Under the pieces are notes generated by a model. The model was given only the letters and a program-made list of their open reading frames with translations, ran no database searches and was not told the DNA's origin. Position numbers and translations under genes: made by a program. A stretch of DNA of 64,000 nt, from assembly GCA_017516005.1 (NCBI GenBank), contig JAFWDU010000013.1:1-64000 (forward strand), read 5' to 3'. Source of the DNA: Oscillospiraceae bacterium (GTDB taxonomy: Bacteria > Bacillota > Clostridia > Oscillospirales > Oscillospiraceae). Below, piece by piece: positions 22,922-54,224 of the stretch. Each line of letters begins with the position of its first letter. The stretch's first letter is position 1.

Positions 22922-24037
22922 TCAGCTGATCTTCAGCGTCTCCCAAAGCGTAGTGATGTAGCTCAGCGTATCCGGATCCAGATTGCGGTAGGCGTACTCG
23001 TTGTAGAGCTCGGAGAAATTCTCAATGCCGGGGTAGAGAATGGCAATGGCATCTTCGCCCAGTTCTTCCTGATAGTCCTCACTGTCGTAAACAAGGGAGT
23101 TGGGGGAGGCGTAATAGATGTACTCGGCGTTCGCGATTGCAGGCTCCTCAGAAAGCATATAGTTGATGAAGATCTCTGCCAGTTCCTTGTTCTGGCAGCA
23201 GGAGGGGATGCACATTGCGTCCACAAAGTAATTGGTGCGTTCGGGATAATAGAACTGCAGGTCCACGGAATCGCTCTGATTGTCGAGCATGGTGAAGTAG
23301 TCGCCGGCGTAGTAGGCTGCAATGGCCGCCTCACCGGACTCCATCATGTTGTAGACCTCATCCATGACATAACTCTTGATCATGGGAGACTGGGTCTTGA
23401 GCTCCTGCAGAGCGGCATCCCAGTTGGCGTGATCTGTGCTGTTTACATCCAGCCCAAGCTTATACTGTGCGGTGGCAAAGGCGTCGCGGGAATTGTTGAA
23501 CTGCAGAATGTTGCCTGCATACTTCTCATTCCACATCAGATCCCAGTCGCCGACATCCGCCTCATCGACCACGTTGGCGTCATAGATAATGCCGACAACG
23601 CCGTAGGTGTAGGGAACCGTATACTGGTTGTCAGGATCATAGTAAAGACCGCGGAAGCTCTCGTCAATATACTGATAGTTGGGGATGTTGTCGTAATTCA
23701 GAGGAAGAAGCATCCCTTCGTCCTTCATTCTTGCAATCATATAGTCGGAGGGAATGATCACGTCATAGCTGACAGCGCCGCTGGACAGCTTTGCATACAT
23801 ATCCTCATTGCTCTGATAGGTGGTATAGCGCACGGTGATCTTGGCTCCGTAGGTCTGCTGATACCATTCCTTGAACGCAGCGATGGTGTCCAGGGTGCCT
23901 TCGGATCCGTCGGAGATGTATTCGCCCCAGTTGTACACATTCAGGACAAGGGACTTGGATTTGCCGCAGGAGGACAGAGTCAGCAGAGCGCTGAGCATAA
24001 GCACAAGGCTCAGGAGGACGCAGATTGTTTTCTTCAT
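22922..24037 (-). CDS. potD: Spermidine/putrescine ABC transporter, binding protein
   Basis: 371 residues from ATG 24037 (MKKTICVLL), with AAGGAG upstream; longer frames overlap potC and lack a site. Lipoprotein signal with lipobox LSSC. LNVYNWGEYI at the mature N-terminus and IIPSDYMIARM are hallmarks of PotD/PotF-type polyamine-binding proteins. It delivers polyamines to PotB/PotC. Last gene of the operon, followed by a terminator. Confidence 0.94.
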   Translation of the reverse strand: MKKTICVLLSLVLMLSALLTLSSCGKSKSLVLNVYNWGEYISDGSEGTLDTIAAFKEWYQQTYGAKITVRYTTYQSNEDMYAKLSSGAVSYDVIIPSDYMIARMKDEGMLLPLNYDNIPNYQYIDESFRGLYYDPDNQYTVPYTYGVVGIIYDANVVDEADVGDWDLMWNEKYAGNILQFNNSRDAFATAQYKLGLDVNSTDHANWDAALQELKTQSPMIKSYVMDEVYNMMESGEAAIAAYYAGDYFTMLDNQSDSVDLQFYYPERTNYFVDAMCIPSCCQNKELAEIFINYMLSEEPAIANAEYIYYASPNSLVYDSEDYQEELGEDAIAILYPGIENFSELYNEYAYRNLDPDTLSYITTLWETLKIS

Positions 24038-24041
24038 GGAT

Positions 24042-24884
24042 TTATAGCTCCTTTTTTGCATGATTTGCTTTCTTTCTGGATCTGGCTTCCCGGATCGTCT
24101 GTGCCGTGTTGGCATCGAAGACGTTGGAGAGAAGCAGCAGTGCCAGAATCACGAAGAAGATGATGGTTGCGAGGGCGTACATCTTCGGAGTGACGGTTTT
24201 CTTTGTCATGTTATAGATGCGGATGGGAAGAGTCTGGAAACCGTTTCCCGTTGTGAAATAGCTGATGACAAAGTCGTCCAGGGACAGGGTGAAGGCCATG
24301 ATGAGTCCCGTTATGATGCCAGGCATGATTTCGGGAACTTCTACCTTAAGAAAGGCCTTGATCGGTGTGCAGCCGAGATCCATGGCGGCTTCCGGAAGCG
24401 AAGCGTCCATCTGCTGGATTTTCGGCAGCACCTGAAGAATGACATAGGGCAGGCAGAACGTAATATGGGCGATGAGCATGGTGCCGAAGTTCAGGCTTGT
24501 TGCGGCTCCGAAGAAACGGCCGACAAAGACGAACATCAGCATAAGGGAGATGCCGGTGATAATATCCGGGTTGATCATGGGAATATTAGTAACCGCATCC
24601 ATGGCAACGCGAAGATAACGCTTTTTCAGCCGATGCATGCCGACCGCTGCGGCAGTGCCCATGACGGTGGAGATGATGGAGGCGCTGACCGCGAGGATCA
24701 GTGTGTTCTTCACGGAACTCAGGGTTTCCGAATCACGGAAGAGTTCCCGGTACCAGTGCATAGAGAAGGAGGAGAACACGCTCAGACTCTTGGAAGAGTT
24801 AAAAGAGAAAACCAGGAGAATCGCGATCGGCGCAAAGAGAAAGAGAAGAATCAGCGCTGTGTAGATTCTGGAGACATGCTTCAT
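24042..24884 (-). CDS. potC: Spermidine/putrescine ABC transporter permease
   Basis: 280 residues with six membrane segments. The EAA loop EAAMDLGCTPIKAFLKVEVP and the C-terminal SLDDFVISYF segment are typical of PotC. AGGAGG upstream. It forms the channel with PotB. Confidence 0.94.
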   Translation of the reverse strand: MKHVSRIYTALILLFLFAPIAILLVFSFNSSKSLSVFSSFSMHWYRELFRDSETLSSVKNTLILAVSASIISTVMGTAAAVGMHRLKKRYLRVAMDAVTNIPMINPDIITGISLMLMFVFVGRFFGAATSLNFGTMLIAHITFCLPYVILQVLPKIQQMDASLPEAAMDLGCTPIKAFLKVEVPEIMPGIITGLIMAFTLSLDDFVISYFTTGNGFQTLPIRIYNMTKKTVTPKMYALATIIFFVILALLLLSNVFDANTAQTIREARSRKKANHAKKEL

Positions 24885-24902: not shown

Positions 24903-25781
24903 TCACGCGGTAGCACGCTTGTTGGCGGCGCGCTGCATGACAGCCATGCAGATAAGAAGAATCACCATGAGAATGAAGGCGATGGCGGCGGCGAAGTGAA
25001 GATTATTCGCCGTATACTGGCTCTCAATGGCGTCGCCAATAAGATAGAACTTTCCGTTGCCCAGTTTCTGGGAGATGTAGAAGGTGCTGATAGAAGGAAT
25101 AAGCACCATGGTAATGCCGGAAATGACGCCGGGAAGGCTGAGAGGCCAGATCACACGGCGCAGAACGCCGATTCCATTGCAGCCCAGGTCATGAGCCGCT
25201 TCGATGAGCTTGATGTCCATCTTGGCCATAACGGAATAGATGGGAAGAATCATATAGGGGAAGTAGTCATAGACCATGCCGATAACAACAGCTGACTCTG
25301 TTCCGATGATATGAATTTTCCCAAGTCCCAGCATGCCGAGCAGTCCGTTGAAAATGCCGGTATCCTGCAGGATTGTCATCCATGCGTAGGTGCGGATTAG
25401 GAAATTCATCCACATGGGGATCATAATCAGGGTGATGAGAATGCCCTGCGTCTTCGGGGATGCGCGCGAGATCAGATACGCAAAAGGATAGCCGAACACG
25501 AGGCAGATGATGGTGGAGATCACGGCAAGCTTGAGAGAACGGCCGAAAATCAGCAGATAGGTATGAACCATTCTGGTTCCGTTCTCATCTGAGATTTCAG
25601 AAGTTGCCTTGAAGAACCGGAGAATATTCTCGGTTGTGAAGTGAAAAGCCGAGTCGGTAAATGCATAGTATGCCACAAAGATCAGGGGTACGAGAATGAA
25701 GAGAACCGCCCAGAAGGAGTATGGAGTCAGTGCCAAACGCCGAATCAGGGCAAGATTCCGGTTGGAGCGTTTCAGATTCAA
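24903..25781 (-). CDS. potB: Spermidine/putrescine ABC transporter permease
   Basis: 292 residues, six membrane segments. The EAA loop EAAHDLGCNGIGVLRRVIWP is seen around residue 195. The start codon is TTG at 25781, supported by AGGAGG eight bases upstream and immediately after the potA stop. Partner of PotC. Confidence 0.93.
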   Translation of the reverse strand: MNLKRSNRNLALIRRLALTPYSFWAVLFILVPLIFVAYYAFTDSAFHFTTENILRFFKATSEISDENGTRMVHTYLLIFGRSLKLAVISTIICLVFGYPFAYLISRASPKTQGILITLIMIPMWMNFLIRTYAWMTILQDTGIFNGLLGMLGLGKIHIIGTESAVVIGMVYDYFPYMILPIYSVMAKMDIKLIEAAHDLGCNGIGVLRRVIWPLSLPGVISGITMVLIPSISTFYISQKLGNGKFYLIGDAIESQYTANNLHFAAAIAFILMVILLICMAVMQRAANKRATA

Positions 25782-25783
25782 TG

Positions 25784-26905
25784 TTACTCCTCCTCCGCAT
25801 TCAGTTCCGCGTCAGAGAGCTCATCAAGCTCGTTGGAGAAGGAGGAGTAATCTCCAAACATGCCGGAGTACTCGGATTTGTGCATGATATGGATGGCTTC
25901 CGGTTCGATGAAAAGACCGATGTGAGAGCCGACAGGCTCGAAATCCGTGGTCTGGATCATCCATTTGAAGCCGTTGATATCCACGATGATTTCATAATGA
26001 ACGCCGAGGAATGTGACGGAGGTGACTACGCCTTCCAGCATGCCCTTGTCGACCGGGACGATATCCACATCTTCCGGACGAACAACCACATCAACTGGCT
26101 CACGCTCTTCAAAACCGAAGTCAACGCACTCAAAATCGTGACCAGAGAACCGGACCAGGCGGTCACGAAGCATAATCCCGTCAACAATATTGCTTTCTCC
26201 GATGAAGTCGGCAACGAAAGCGTTCTTCGGCTCGTTGTAGATATCCATGGGAGTGCCAATCTGCTGGATCTGGCCTTCGCTCATGACAACAACCGTGTCA
26301 GACATGCTCAGGGCTTCTTCCTGGTCATGTGTGACGAAAATGAAGGTGATTCCCATTGCCTTCTGAATGTTTTTCAGCTCCTGCTGCATGTCCTTGCGAA
26401 GCTTCAGATCCAGGGCGGCAAGAGGCTCATCGAGAAGGAGAACCTTTGGACGGCCGACCAATGCCCGCGCGATTGCCACACGCTGCTGTTGTCCGCCGGA
26501 GAGACTGGTGACAGAACGCTTTTCAAAGCCGGTCAGGGCGACCATTTTCAGCATCTCATCCACGCGCTCCCTGATCTCCTGCCTGCCAACCTTCTTTTCA
26601 CGAAGCGGAAATGCAACGTTTTCAAAGACATTCAGGTGAGGGAAGAGTGCATAGCGCTGGAAGATGGTGTTGACGTTCCTTTTATGGGGAGGCAGATCCT
26701 GAATATCGCGGCCCATAAAGATGACATCGCCCTCATCCGCCGTCTCAAAACCGGCAATGATTCGAAGCGTGGTGGTCTTTCCACAGCCGGAAGGGCCGAG
26801 TAGCGTCAGAAACTCGTTGTCGTTGATGTACAGATTGATATTATCAAGTACTTTCTTCCCGTCATAGGACTTGGAAACGTTTTTTAATTCGATCAGCTTA
26901 TCCAT
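25784..26905 (-). CDS. potA: Spermidine/putrescine ABC transporter ATPase
   Basis: 373 residues from ATG 26905 (MDKLIELKN), preceded by GGAGG; the longer frame runs into the leader terminator and is rejected. Walker [10 protein letters not shown], signature LSGGQQQR, Walker [13 protein letters not shown] and switch FVTHDQEE are intact, with a C-terminal TOBE domain. First gene of the operon. Confidence 0.95.
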
Positions 26906-26921
26906 GTCCGGCCTCCAAAAG

Positions 26922-26957
26922 AAAAAGGTGATGCATGCATAACAAGCATACATCACC
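26922..26957 (-). terminator. Leader terminator upstream of potA
   Basis: GGTGATGTATGC (26957-26946) pairs with GCATGCATCACC (26938-26927), a 12-bp stem with one GU pair, followed on the minus strand by TTTTTCTTTT. It lies between the leader RNA and the potA ribosome site, so the operon is probably controlled by conditional termination. Confidence 0.82.
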
Positions 26958-27259
26958 TGAACACGACATGGGAAAGACCGTACGAATTGGTCCGTCTTCC
27001 GTCTCAATGGGTTTTCGAGTCTATATAGCAAAGATTACTTTTACTACTCTTATTGACCATTTCACAAGTTTTGTATGCAGCTGCACACTGGTTTATAGTA
27101 ACCAACTTTCATGAAACTGAGCTTTTAACTCAATCAATAAGGCAACGAAAGTTGCCACCGCACCTGCGGTTCATCGGCATTCGACCCGGCTGTCCGTCTG
27201 GCCTTGGCTGCAGATTCTGCAGCGGTCGCATCTTGCTTTGGAATACTCCAATTGAGACG
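26958..27259 (-). ncRNA. Large structured leader RNA of the pot operon (unidentified class)
   Basis: Read on the minus strand, a 9-bp perfect helix (27259-27251 with 27008-27000) closes a domain of about 260 nt beginning at the predicted transcription start. Inside are many exact complementary pairs: CTTATTGA/TCAATAAG (8 bp), GCTGCAG/CTGCAGC (7 bp), GGCAAC/GTTGCC (6 bp), ACCGC/GCGGT, CGACC/GGTCG, TTGGA/TCCAA, GGTT/AACC, GTGTGCAG/CTGCATAC and TTTCA..AAGTT/AACTT.TGAAA. A further hairpin and then the terminator at 26922-26957 follow. No protein gene fits. It matches none of the common riboswitch cores I can recall (lysine, SAM, cobalamin, TPP, glycine, guanidine-I). It could be a riboswitch or an independent RNA. 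Confidence 0.7.
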
Positions 27260-27263
27260 CCTT

Positions 27264-27292
27264 ATTCTAGCAATTTCGAATGTTTGTGTCAA
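27264..27292 (-). promoter_or_regulatory. Sigma-A promoter of the pot leader/operon
   Basis: TTGACA (27292-27287), 17-base spacer, TAGAAT (27269-27264). Predicted start about 27257, at the 5' arm of the closing helix of the leader RNA. Confidence 0.82.
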
Positions 27293-27393
27293 TCTATTTT
27301 CGATAAATCGGGAGATTGTGAATAAATCAGGGATTTTGGAGACGCCCTTTTATGTATTTCGTCACGGAAGAGTCAGAAACGGGTGCAAGCAAC

Positions 27394-37355: not shown

Positions 37356-37667
37356 ATGCAGGCTATTATTGTCACAGGCGGCAAGCAGTACAACGTCTCT
37401 GAGGGCGATGTCCTCTACATCGAGAAGCTGAACTGCGAGGCGGGCGACAAGATCAGTTTCGACCAGGTTCTTGCGATCGTTGACGGAGAGAACTCCAAGT
37501 TCGGTACTCCCACGGTTGCCGGAGCAAAGGTGGAAGCCAGCGTCGTCAAGAACGGCAAGGGCAAGAAGATTTACGTCTTCAAGTATCGGCCGAAGAAGGA
37601 CTCCAAGTCCATGCGCGGCCATCGTCAGCCGTATACCAAGGTGCAGATCGAGAAGATCGTGCAGTAA
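37356..37667 (+). CDS. rplU: 50S ribosomal protein L21
   Basis: 103 residues, starting [18 protein letters not shown] and ending in the basic [15 protein letters not shown] region that contacts 23S rRNA. Ribosome site AGGTAGGTG. Its stop overlaps the prp start (TAATG). Confidence 0.97.
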
Positions 37668-37990
37668 TGACTACGGTTTCATTTAAAAACGAGCAGGGAA
37701 GAATCACTGGTTTTACCTGCGAAGGGCACTCCGGTTATGCGGAAGCCGGCGCGGATATCATCTGCGCGGCAGTATCTACGGCCGTCCAGTTTGCAACAGC
37801 CACCATCTGCGATGTGCTTGGTGTCAGCTGCAAGACGAAAGTAGACGAGGAAAACGCGCTGATCCGGCTCAGCCTTCCCGCTGTCTGCGAGGAGGAGGAC
37901 GCCGCACAGGCGGTTCTCAGCGGAATGATGCTCACCCTGAGCGCCCTGCATGACGAGTATCCGGATTATATCGAAGTTTTGGAGGTGTAA
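37667..37990 (+). CDS. prp: Ribosomal-processing cysteine protease Prp
   Basis: 107 residues. The catalytic pair is visible: His21 in [12 protein letters not shown] and Cys33 in IICAAVS, at the family's usual spacing. Prp removes the N-terminal extension of L27; the substrate is encoded next and carries the matching cleavage sequence. Located between rplU and rpmA as in other Firmicutes. Confidence 0.95.
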
Positions 37991-54019: not shown

Positions 54020-54224
54020 TGCTGAACCTGAAAGATTCCCTGCGGTTCTCTCATGGAACTGGAATTCCGGAACTGCAGTTTGCTTCTTCGGTGCGCGATT
54101 GCGCTCTCCAGAGTTTCGTCAGAAGCCGGTCCTTTTGCCTGAGAGTGATTGCAGCCCCTTCGGCGCCGCCCGTTTCCAGCGTCAGCGGTCTCTCCCGACT
54201 TCGTCATCCGAATCTTCAATTGTC
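54020..54224 (-). promoter_or_regulatory. Tandem glycine riboswitch
   Basis: Two aptamers in series on the minus strand. The first has GGGAGAGACCGC, GCCGAAGGGGCTGCAA and CTCTCAGGCAAAAGGACCG; the second has CTCTGGAGAGCGC, GCACCGAAGAAGCAAAC and TCTTTCAGGT. These are the conserved glycine-binding blocks, with the usual short linker. Glycine should prevent the terminator and switch on the cleavage genes. Confidence 0.95.

Follow-up and report, generated by a model that had tools for sequence, protein, structure and literature searches.

A large conserved leader RNA upstream of potABCD in an Oscillospiraceae bacterium is probably a polyamine-responsive attenuator

Introduction

A variant of the SAM-I riboswitch that responds to spermidine, with 13 examples associated with metK, ldcC and speB/speE genes, is the sole polyamine riboswitch class with convincing evidence, and its authors concluded that further polyamine classes must exist (PMC10853860). 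Other RNA candidates before polyamine genes are the odc1 motif of alpha-proteobacteria, which combines a single hairpin with a pseudoknot and a uORF, and the potE motif, a weak candidate that lacks an expression platform (PMC8632094). The SAM-I variant was the only polyamine riboswitch on which our literature search, with subscription papers and bioRxiv outside its scope, found papers.

Here we describe a leader RNA encoded in a 64,000-nt stretch of DNA (the window; positions 1 to 64,000 of contig JAFWDU010000013.1, assembly GCA_017516005.1) from an Oscillospiraceae bacterium. The descriptions of potE and odc1 set them apart from this RNA. It would be alike in kind to the spermidine riboswitch, that is, a transcription-terminating OFF switch before Gram-positive polyamine genes (ldcC is among those of the riboswitch), but it has another fold and another sequence, and the four stems that define SAM-I were not recognized in the leader at E values up to 10. 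Part of it belongs to Rfam family RF02440, "Streptococcus sRNA SpF59 (ldcC RNA)", a 54-nt entry of type sRNA with no ligand. The label "ldcC RNA" suggests that a link to the gene had been noticed by someone. A search of the same scope returned no paper describing ldcC RNA, and for SpF59 only strain names and one unrelated review; in the main text of the Breaker-laboratory motif surveys of 2019, 2021 and 2024 a matching motif is absent.

Results

The Leader and the potABCD Genes

All features of the locus lie on the minus strand (Table 1). The promoter and the terminator were read directly from the DNA, as described in an earlier note on this stretch, and the transcript would start at about 27257. 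The terminator directly precedes a GGAGG SD sequence (26916-26912) and the potA ATG at 26905. The potA product scored above the cut-offs of both NF043075 (550 bits) and TIGR01187 (355.6 bits). The predicted fold of the leader reached -118 kcal/mol, versus -92.3 +/- 5.1 kcal/mol for 100 dinucleotide-preserving shuffles, none of which folded as well (z = -5.0). Elsewhere in the window, a glycine riboswitch aptamer (RF00504) was detected at 54117-54207 on the minus strand (58.5 bits).

Table 1. Coordinates of the leader RNA, its elements and the downstream genes in the window.
Feature	Position	Strand	Remarks
Promoter	27264..27292	-	TTGACA (27292-27287), 17-nt spacer, TAGAAT (27269-27264)
Whole leader	26922..27257	-	about 336 nt, putative start to terminator end
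Full-length conserved motif	27007..27259	-	own covariance model R1, 198 bits, E 2e-63; this copy (L001) belongs to the R1 training set
P1 5' strand	27230..27248	-	GAGU 27248-27245, GCAAGAU 27236-27230
P1 3' strand	27017..27035	-	AUCUUUGC 27035-27028, ACUC 27020-27017
SpF59 module (RF02440)	27174..27228	-	conserved GGCCANACGGACAGCCGGGUC..UGCCGA
P2	CGACC 27228-27224 / GGUCG 27186-27182	-	first pair significant, tree-aware test
P3	GCUGCAG 27223-27217 / CUGCAGC 27213-27207	-	significant, tree-aware test
Optional hairpin ACCGC/GCGGU	27157..27170	-	close relatives only
P5 hairpin	27141..27156	-	GGCAAC 27156-27151 / GUUGCC 27146-27141; three significantly covarying pairs
Core domain P6-P10	27050..27140	-	absent from Rfam
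P6	UUAUUGA 27140-27134 / UCAAUAA 27056-27050	-	
P7	27133-27117	-	
P8	27116-27104 / AACUUGUGAAA 27070-27060	-	
P9	GGUU 27103-27100 / AACC 27093-27090	-	
P10	27088-27082 / 27079-27073	-	
Antiterminator 5' strand	27065..27083	-	P10 3' strand and ACUUG of P8; pairs with terminator 5' arm
Terminator hairpin AGGTGATGTATGC/GCATGCATCACCT	26926..26958	-	T run to 26922
Terminator 5' arm	26958-26946	-	common to terminator and antiterminator
potA, spermidine/putrescine ABC transporter ATPase	25784..26905	-	NF043075 569 bits, TIGR01187 370 bits
potB-like permease	24903..25781	-	NCBIfam/Pfam
potC-like permease	24042..24884	-	NCBIfam/Pfam
potD-like substrate-binding protein	22922..24115	-	NCBIfam/Pfam

Rfam Covers a Fragment of the Leader

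A cmscan of the whole window matched RF02440 with 66.2 bits (gathering score 37.2). The match corresponds to the 5' quarter of the leader RNA only, comprising P2/P3 and the GGCCANACGGACAGCC strand, and leaves out P1, P5, the core P6-P10 and the expression platform; the remaining approximately 150 nt of the motif are covered by nothing in Rfam. In a scan of 26880-27320 with E values up to 10, nothing else credible was found beyond RF02440 and there was no SAM-clan match, and the T-box and ribosomal-protein leader models did not match the leader either at gathering score or at E up to 10. An established Rfam family for the leader as a whole was ruled out: only the 54-nt fragment matches. The earlier note had recognized no known riboswitch core and had proposed such a scan; because RF02440 matches at 66 bits, that statement was only partly right, although the single credible family has no ligand assigned.

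Distribution of the Full RNA

Among 60 relatives, 14 contained RF02440; at class level it occurred in 41 of 392 genomes, and at phylum level in 18 of 398. A pattern derived from the core sequence retrieved 118 loci with organism names, among them Oscillospiraceae, Lachnospiraceae, Paenibacillus, Bacillus, Neobacillus, Acidaminococcus, Phascolarctobacterium, Erysipelotrichaceae and one Spirochaetes MAG, and in essentially all of these about 150 nt 3' of the SpF59 part were equally conserved. Model R1, built for the full RNA, matched 100/100 loci tried and 51 of the 392 class genomes (about 13%), namely all 41 positive for RF02440 and ten more. Model R2, built for the core, matched the window at 27140-27034 (87.5 bits) and 33 of 379 genomes in the class of a Paenibacillus-like genome (G742), including seven species of one genus with genomes of 1.8-2.3 Mb, presumably Streptococcus. 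Four copies from this genus were read (L210-L213): R1 matched all four and RF02440 three, and one (L211) precedes an Orn/Lys/Arg decarboxylase gene. Judged by these comparisons, for which a set of about 180 loci was assembled, the leader is one representative of a large RNA, about 200 nt long and strongly conserved, that occurs in many Gram-positive bacteria. A stand-alone 54-nt sRNA was not what these loci contained, the longer motif following the RF02440 match in every non-chance locus.

In L212, an ORF resembling an IS200-type transposase lies 3' of the leader terminator, before any controlled gene. Six pattern matches (L070, L081, L088, L091, L108 and L141), from GC-rich genomes without the motif, were treated as chance, and a match in G163 (20 bits) also looks like chance. 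A phage origin was discarded, the exact core match being absent from viral contigs.

Architecture and Covariation

The RNA is closed by P1, followed by the SpF59 module (P2/P3 and GGCCANACGGACAGCC) and by P5; P6 then encloses P7 and a long P8 arm that bears P9 and P10. The branched core P6-P10 is almost invariant, P10 being a variable hairpin. Over 100 distinct aligned copies, the 66 pairs of the model showed 92.3% standard-paired cells (shuffles 83%, slid controls 34-47%), and 45 of them changed on both sides (0/500 shuffles); these counts lean towards the model because the alignment was fitted to the structure. A tree-aware test of our own design, in which substitutions were re-dealt along branches and a G statistic with APC was applied, brought nine column pairs to E<0.05, every one a pair of the model: P3 contributed four, P5 three, and P1 and P2 one each. 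P6 and P8 are barely testable by covariation because they are near-invariant. For P1, duplexes between the 5' leader and its cognate 3' segment were on average more stable than swapped ones (-17.7 versus -13.3 kcal/mol; 93 sequences, 0/20000 permutations). In model R3, where P1 was entered as fixed nested pairs, scores failed to improve and were lower for most loci, because the register of P1 differs between lineages; the helix therefore rests on the swap test and the pair counts and not on model scores. Conservation and covariation thus delineate a structured, aptamer-like domain.

The view in the earlier note that the pairings exceed chance was borne out by the fold score (z = -5), by conservation in homologues and by covariation. 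An 8-bp long-range complement that it listed (CTTATTGA/TCAATAAG) is present in the leader. Its 9-bp helix (CGTCTCAAT, 27259-27251, with ATTGAGACG, 27008-27000) exists as a complement but is not the conserved closing helix: two of its nine pairs would lie before the start at 27257, it is absent from the alignment of distant relatives, and when the aptamer was forced to fold it formed an extension outside P1, so that we regard it as a local outer extension in this genome. That the region holds just a strong terminator and chance pairings with no regulatory role is scarcely conceivable; good folding is common in structured leaders of AT-rich genomes, but such an explanation is contradicted by the fold z-score, the deep conservation, the covariation and the gene association described below.

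Several variant copies were found. L177, L178, L179 and L180 consist of the core with no SpF59 module, lie before speD or decarboxylase genes and are missed by Rfam; L177 and L178 have the core, the terminator and a polyamine gene despite the absence of the module. L176 (G334:C99, approximately 37487-37965, minus strand) also has the core without SpF59 and carries in the P10 loop an insertion of about 300 nt whose ends are inverted repeats (GAGCCGAACAGTAATAATCCAA / TTGGATTGTTACTGTTCGGCT), reminiscent of a small mobile element within a riboswitch hairpin; a terminator and a potA-like gene follow. L010 (1356-1479, minus) and L182 (1046-1168, minus) have an additional GGCAACUCAAUUGCC-type hairpin in the P8 arm beside P9, as if P9 had been duplicated.

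Terminator and Antiterminator

Within 420 nt 3' of the motif, 146 loci had a hairpin with a T run after it, a strong one in 140 cases. For the terminator 5' arm, the P10 and P8 3' strands are alternative pairing partners: in the window, GCAUACA pairs with UGUAUGC of the terminator and ACUU with AGGU (-13.4 kcal/mol). Across 132 loci this pairing averaged -15.3 kcal/mol for cognate partners, -12.3 for swapped and -8.7 for shuffled ones, and it co-varied between species (0/20000 permutations); the invariant ACUUGU of P8 was used in it at 104 of the 132. Because the captured P10/P8 strands belong to the aptamer, aptamer and antiterminator are mutually exclusive, which is the kind of expression platform expected of a riboswitch; a ligand that stabilizes the aptamer would favor termination. 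An OFF switch would follow from this topology and would suit feedback control of uptake and synthesis. Folding of the unliganded RNA gave -101 kcal/mol for the antiterminated state, -108 for aptamer plus terminator and -113 for the minimum free energy structure; since the antiterminated state is the less stable, the switch would have to be kinetic.

The same anatomy bears on whether the RNA could act in trans and lie before the operon by coincidence, which we consider very unlikely. RF02440 is typed as an sRNA by Rfam, and pneumococcal RNA-seq yielded the 327-nt F59/srn235/Spd_sr49 (TIGR4 869478-869804; PMC12323649). However, a polyamine gene on the same strand always follows the terminator, whose arm co-varies with the aptamer, and 327 nt is the length expected of a whole terminated leader, that is, of an attenuator product. 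The RNA may have a secondary role in trans.

Downstream Genes and the Probable Ligand

As expected of a riboswitch, the RNA is associated with the genes of one metabolite: polyamine genes lie downstream at 157 of the 161 loci with a readable downstream gene, distributed among speD (AdoMet decarboxylase; 49), potA (46), Orn/Lys/Arg decarboxylase (41) and carboxynorspermidine-synthase-like dehydrogenase (21). The other four loci, before non-polyamine genes, speak against a polyamine ligand. L008 precedes a lipoprotein matching the Pfam M28 peptidase, and L086 and L126 precede lipoproteins that look similar to it by eye; the substrate of these may be polyamine-related, if the genes are really controlled. 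A divergent copy (L059) lies before an amidohydrolase-family gene (Amidohydro_2).

The polyamine end product is the sole metabolite common to PotABCD import, AdoMet decarboxylase, the amino-acid decarboxylases and carboxynorspermidine synthase. Being the common denominator of the downstream genes, a polyamine would be the ligand, with spermidine as the most economical choice. Another compound of the pathway (AdoMet, decarboxylated AdoMet, MTA, lysine, arginine or ornithine) is an improbable ligand. Such compounds serve as substrates for the products of speD and the decarboxylase genes, but they would leave unexplained the 46 loci with PotABCD uptake and the 21 with carboxynorspermidine-synthase-like genes, and the published polyamine riboswitch, first suspected for MTA, proved to be specific for spermidine (PMC10853860).

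Discussion

We consider it probable, on the evidence of genomes compared, that the leader is a polyamine-responsive transcription-attenuation (OFF) riboswitch of a large class, with spermidine as the most likely ligand. In the proposed mechanism, the RNA of about 200 nt closed by P1 would fold into the SpF59 module, P5 and the branched core P6-P10, and a polyamine, most likely spermidine, would stabilize this fold and keep the 3' strands of P10 and P8 inside the aptamer, so that the terminator (26958-26922) could form and potABCD would be off. When polyamines are scarce, the terminator 5' arm would capture the P10/P8 strands (GCAUACA..ACUU) as an antiterminator, and transcription would continue into potA. 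The earlier note had put forward a polyamine-sensing attenuator and, alternatively, an independent RNA sharing the promoter. The homologues disfavor the latter and strongly support a polyamine-linked attenuator acting in cis, through the genes at 157/161 loci, the species-matched antiterminator and the covariation; polyamines would be what it senses.

The sensor could also be a protein, the ribosome or another factor, the RNA being read by a repressor or antiterminator or through translation coupling. The anatomy shows only that core and antiterminator exclude each other, and high conservation is also possible in protein-controlled leaders. Such a reader is nevertheless unlikely: a complex RNA of about 200 nt with near-invariant P6-P9, GGCCANACGGACAGCC and J regions is what one typically finds in aptamers but seldom in protein sites, this near-invariance spans Clostridia, Paenibacillus, Bacillus, Negativicutes and streptococcus-sized genomes, and no gene other than the polyamine genes recurred as a neighbor at the loci inspected.

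Taking the polyamine riboswitch as the preferred reading, we lean, with somewhat less assurance, to the view that it represents a second natural polyamine class of unrelated architecture, widespread in Bacillota, in which the core P6-P10 of about 105 nt would be the essential sensor, SpF59 a detachable accessory module, and termination would operate via the distal P10/P8 strand. The first 54 nt of the motif belong to RF02440, and the full motif is present in streptococcus-sized genomes before an Orn/Lys/Arg decarboxylase gene; unlike in RF02440, copies with the core only exist (L177 and L178). As in terminator/antiterminator riboswitches such as SAM-I and lysine, an aptamer strand and a terminator arm are mutually exclusive, but in those the strand belongs to the closing helix P1, whereas here a distal strand of the core would be captured.

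With 51 of 392 genomes in one class, the leader RNA is much commoner than the known spermidine riboswitch (13 examples), and it would control polyamine uptake through potABCD as well as synthesis, while lying hidden in databases as a 54-nt sRNA of unstated function. If our interpretation is true, it would explain how many gut Clostridia, Paenibacillus and streptococci maintain polyamine homeostasis, turn an "sRNA" family into a cis-regulator, and offer a large new aptamer for structural study.
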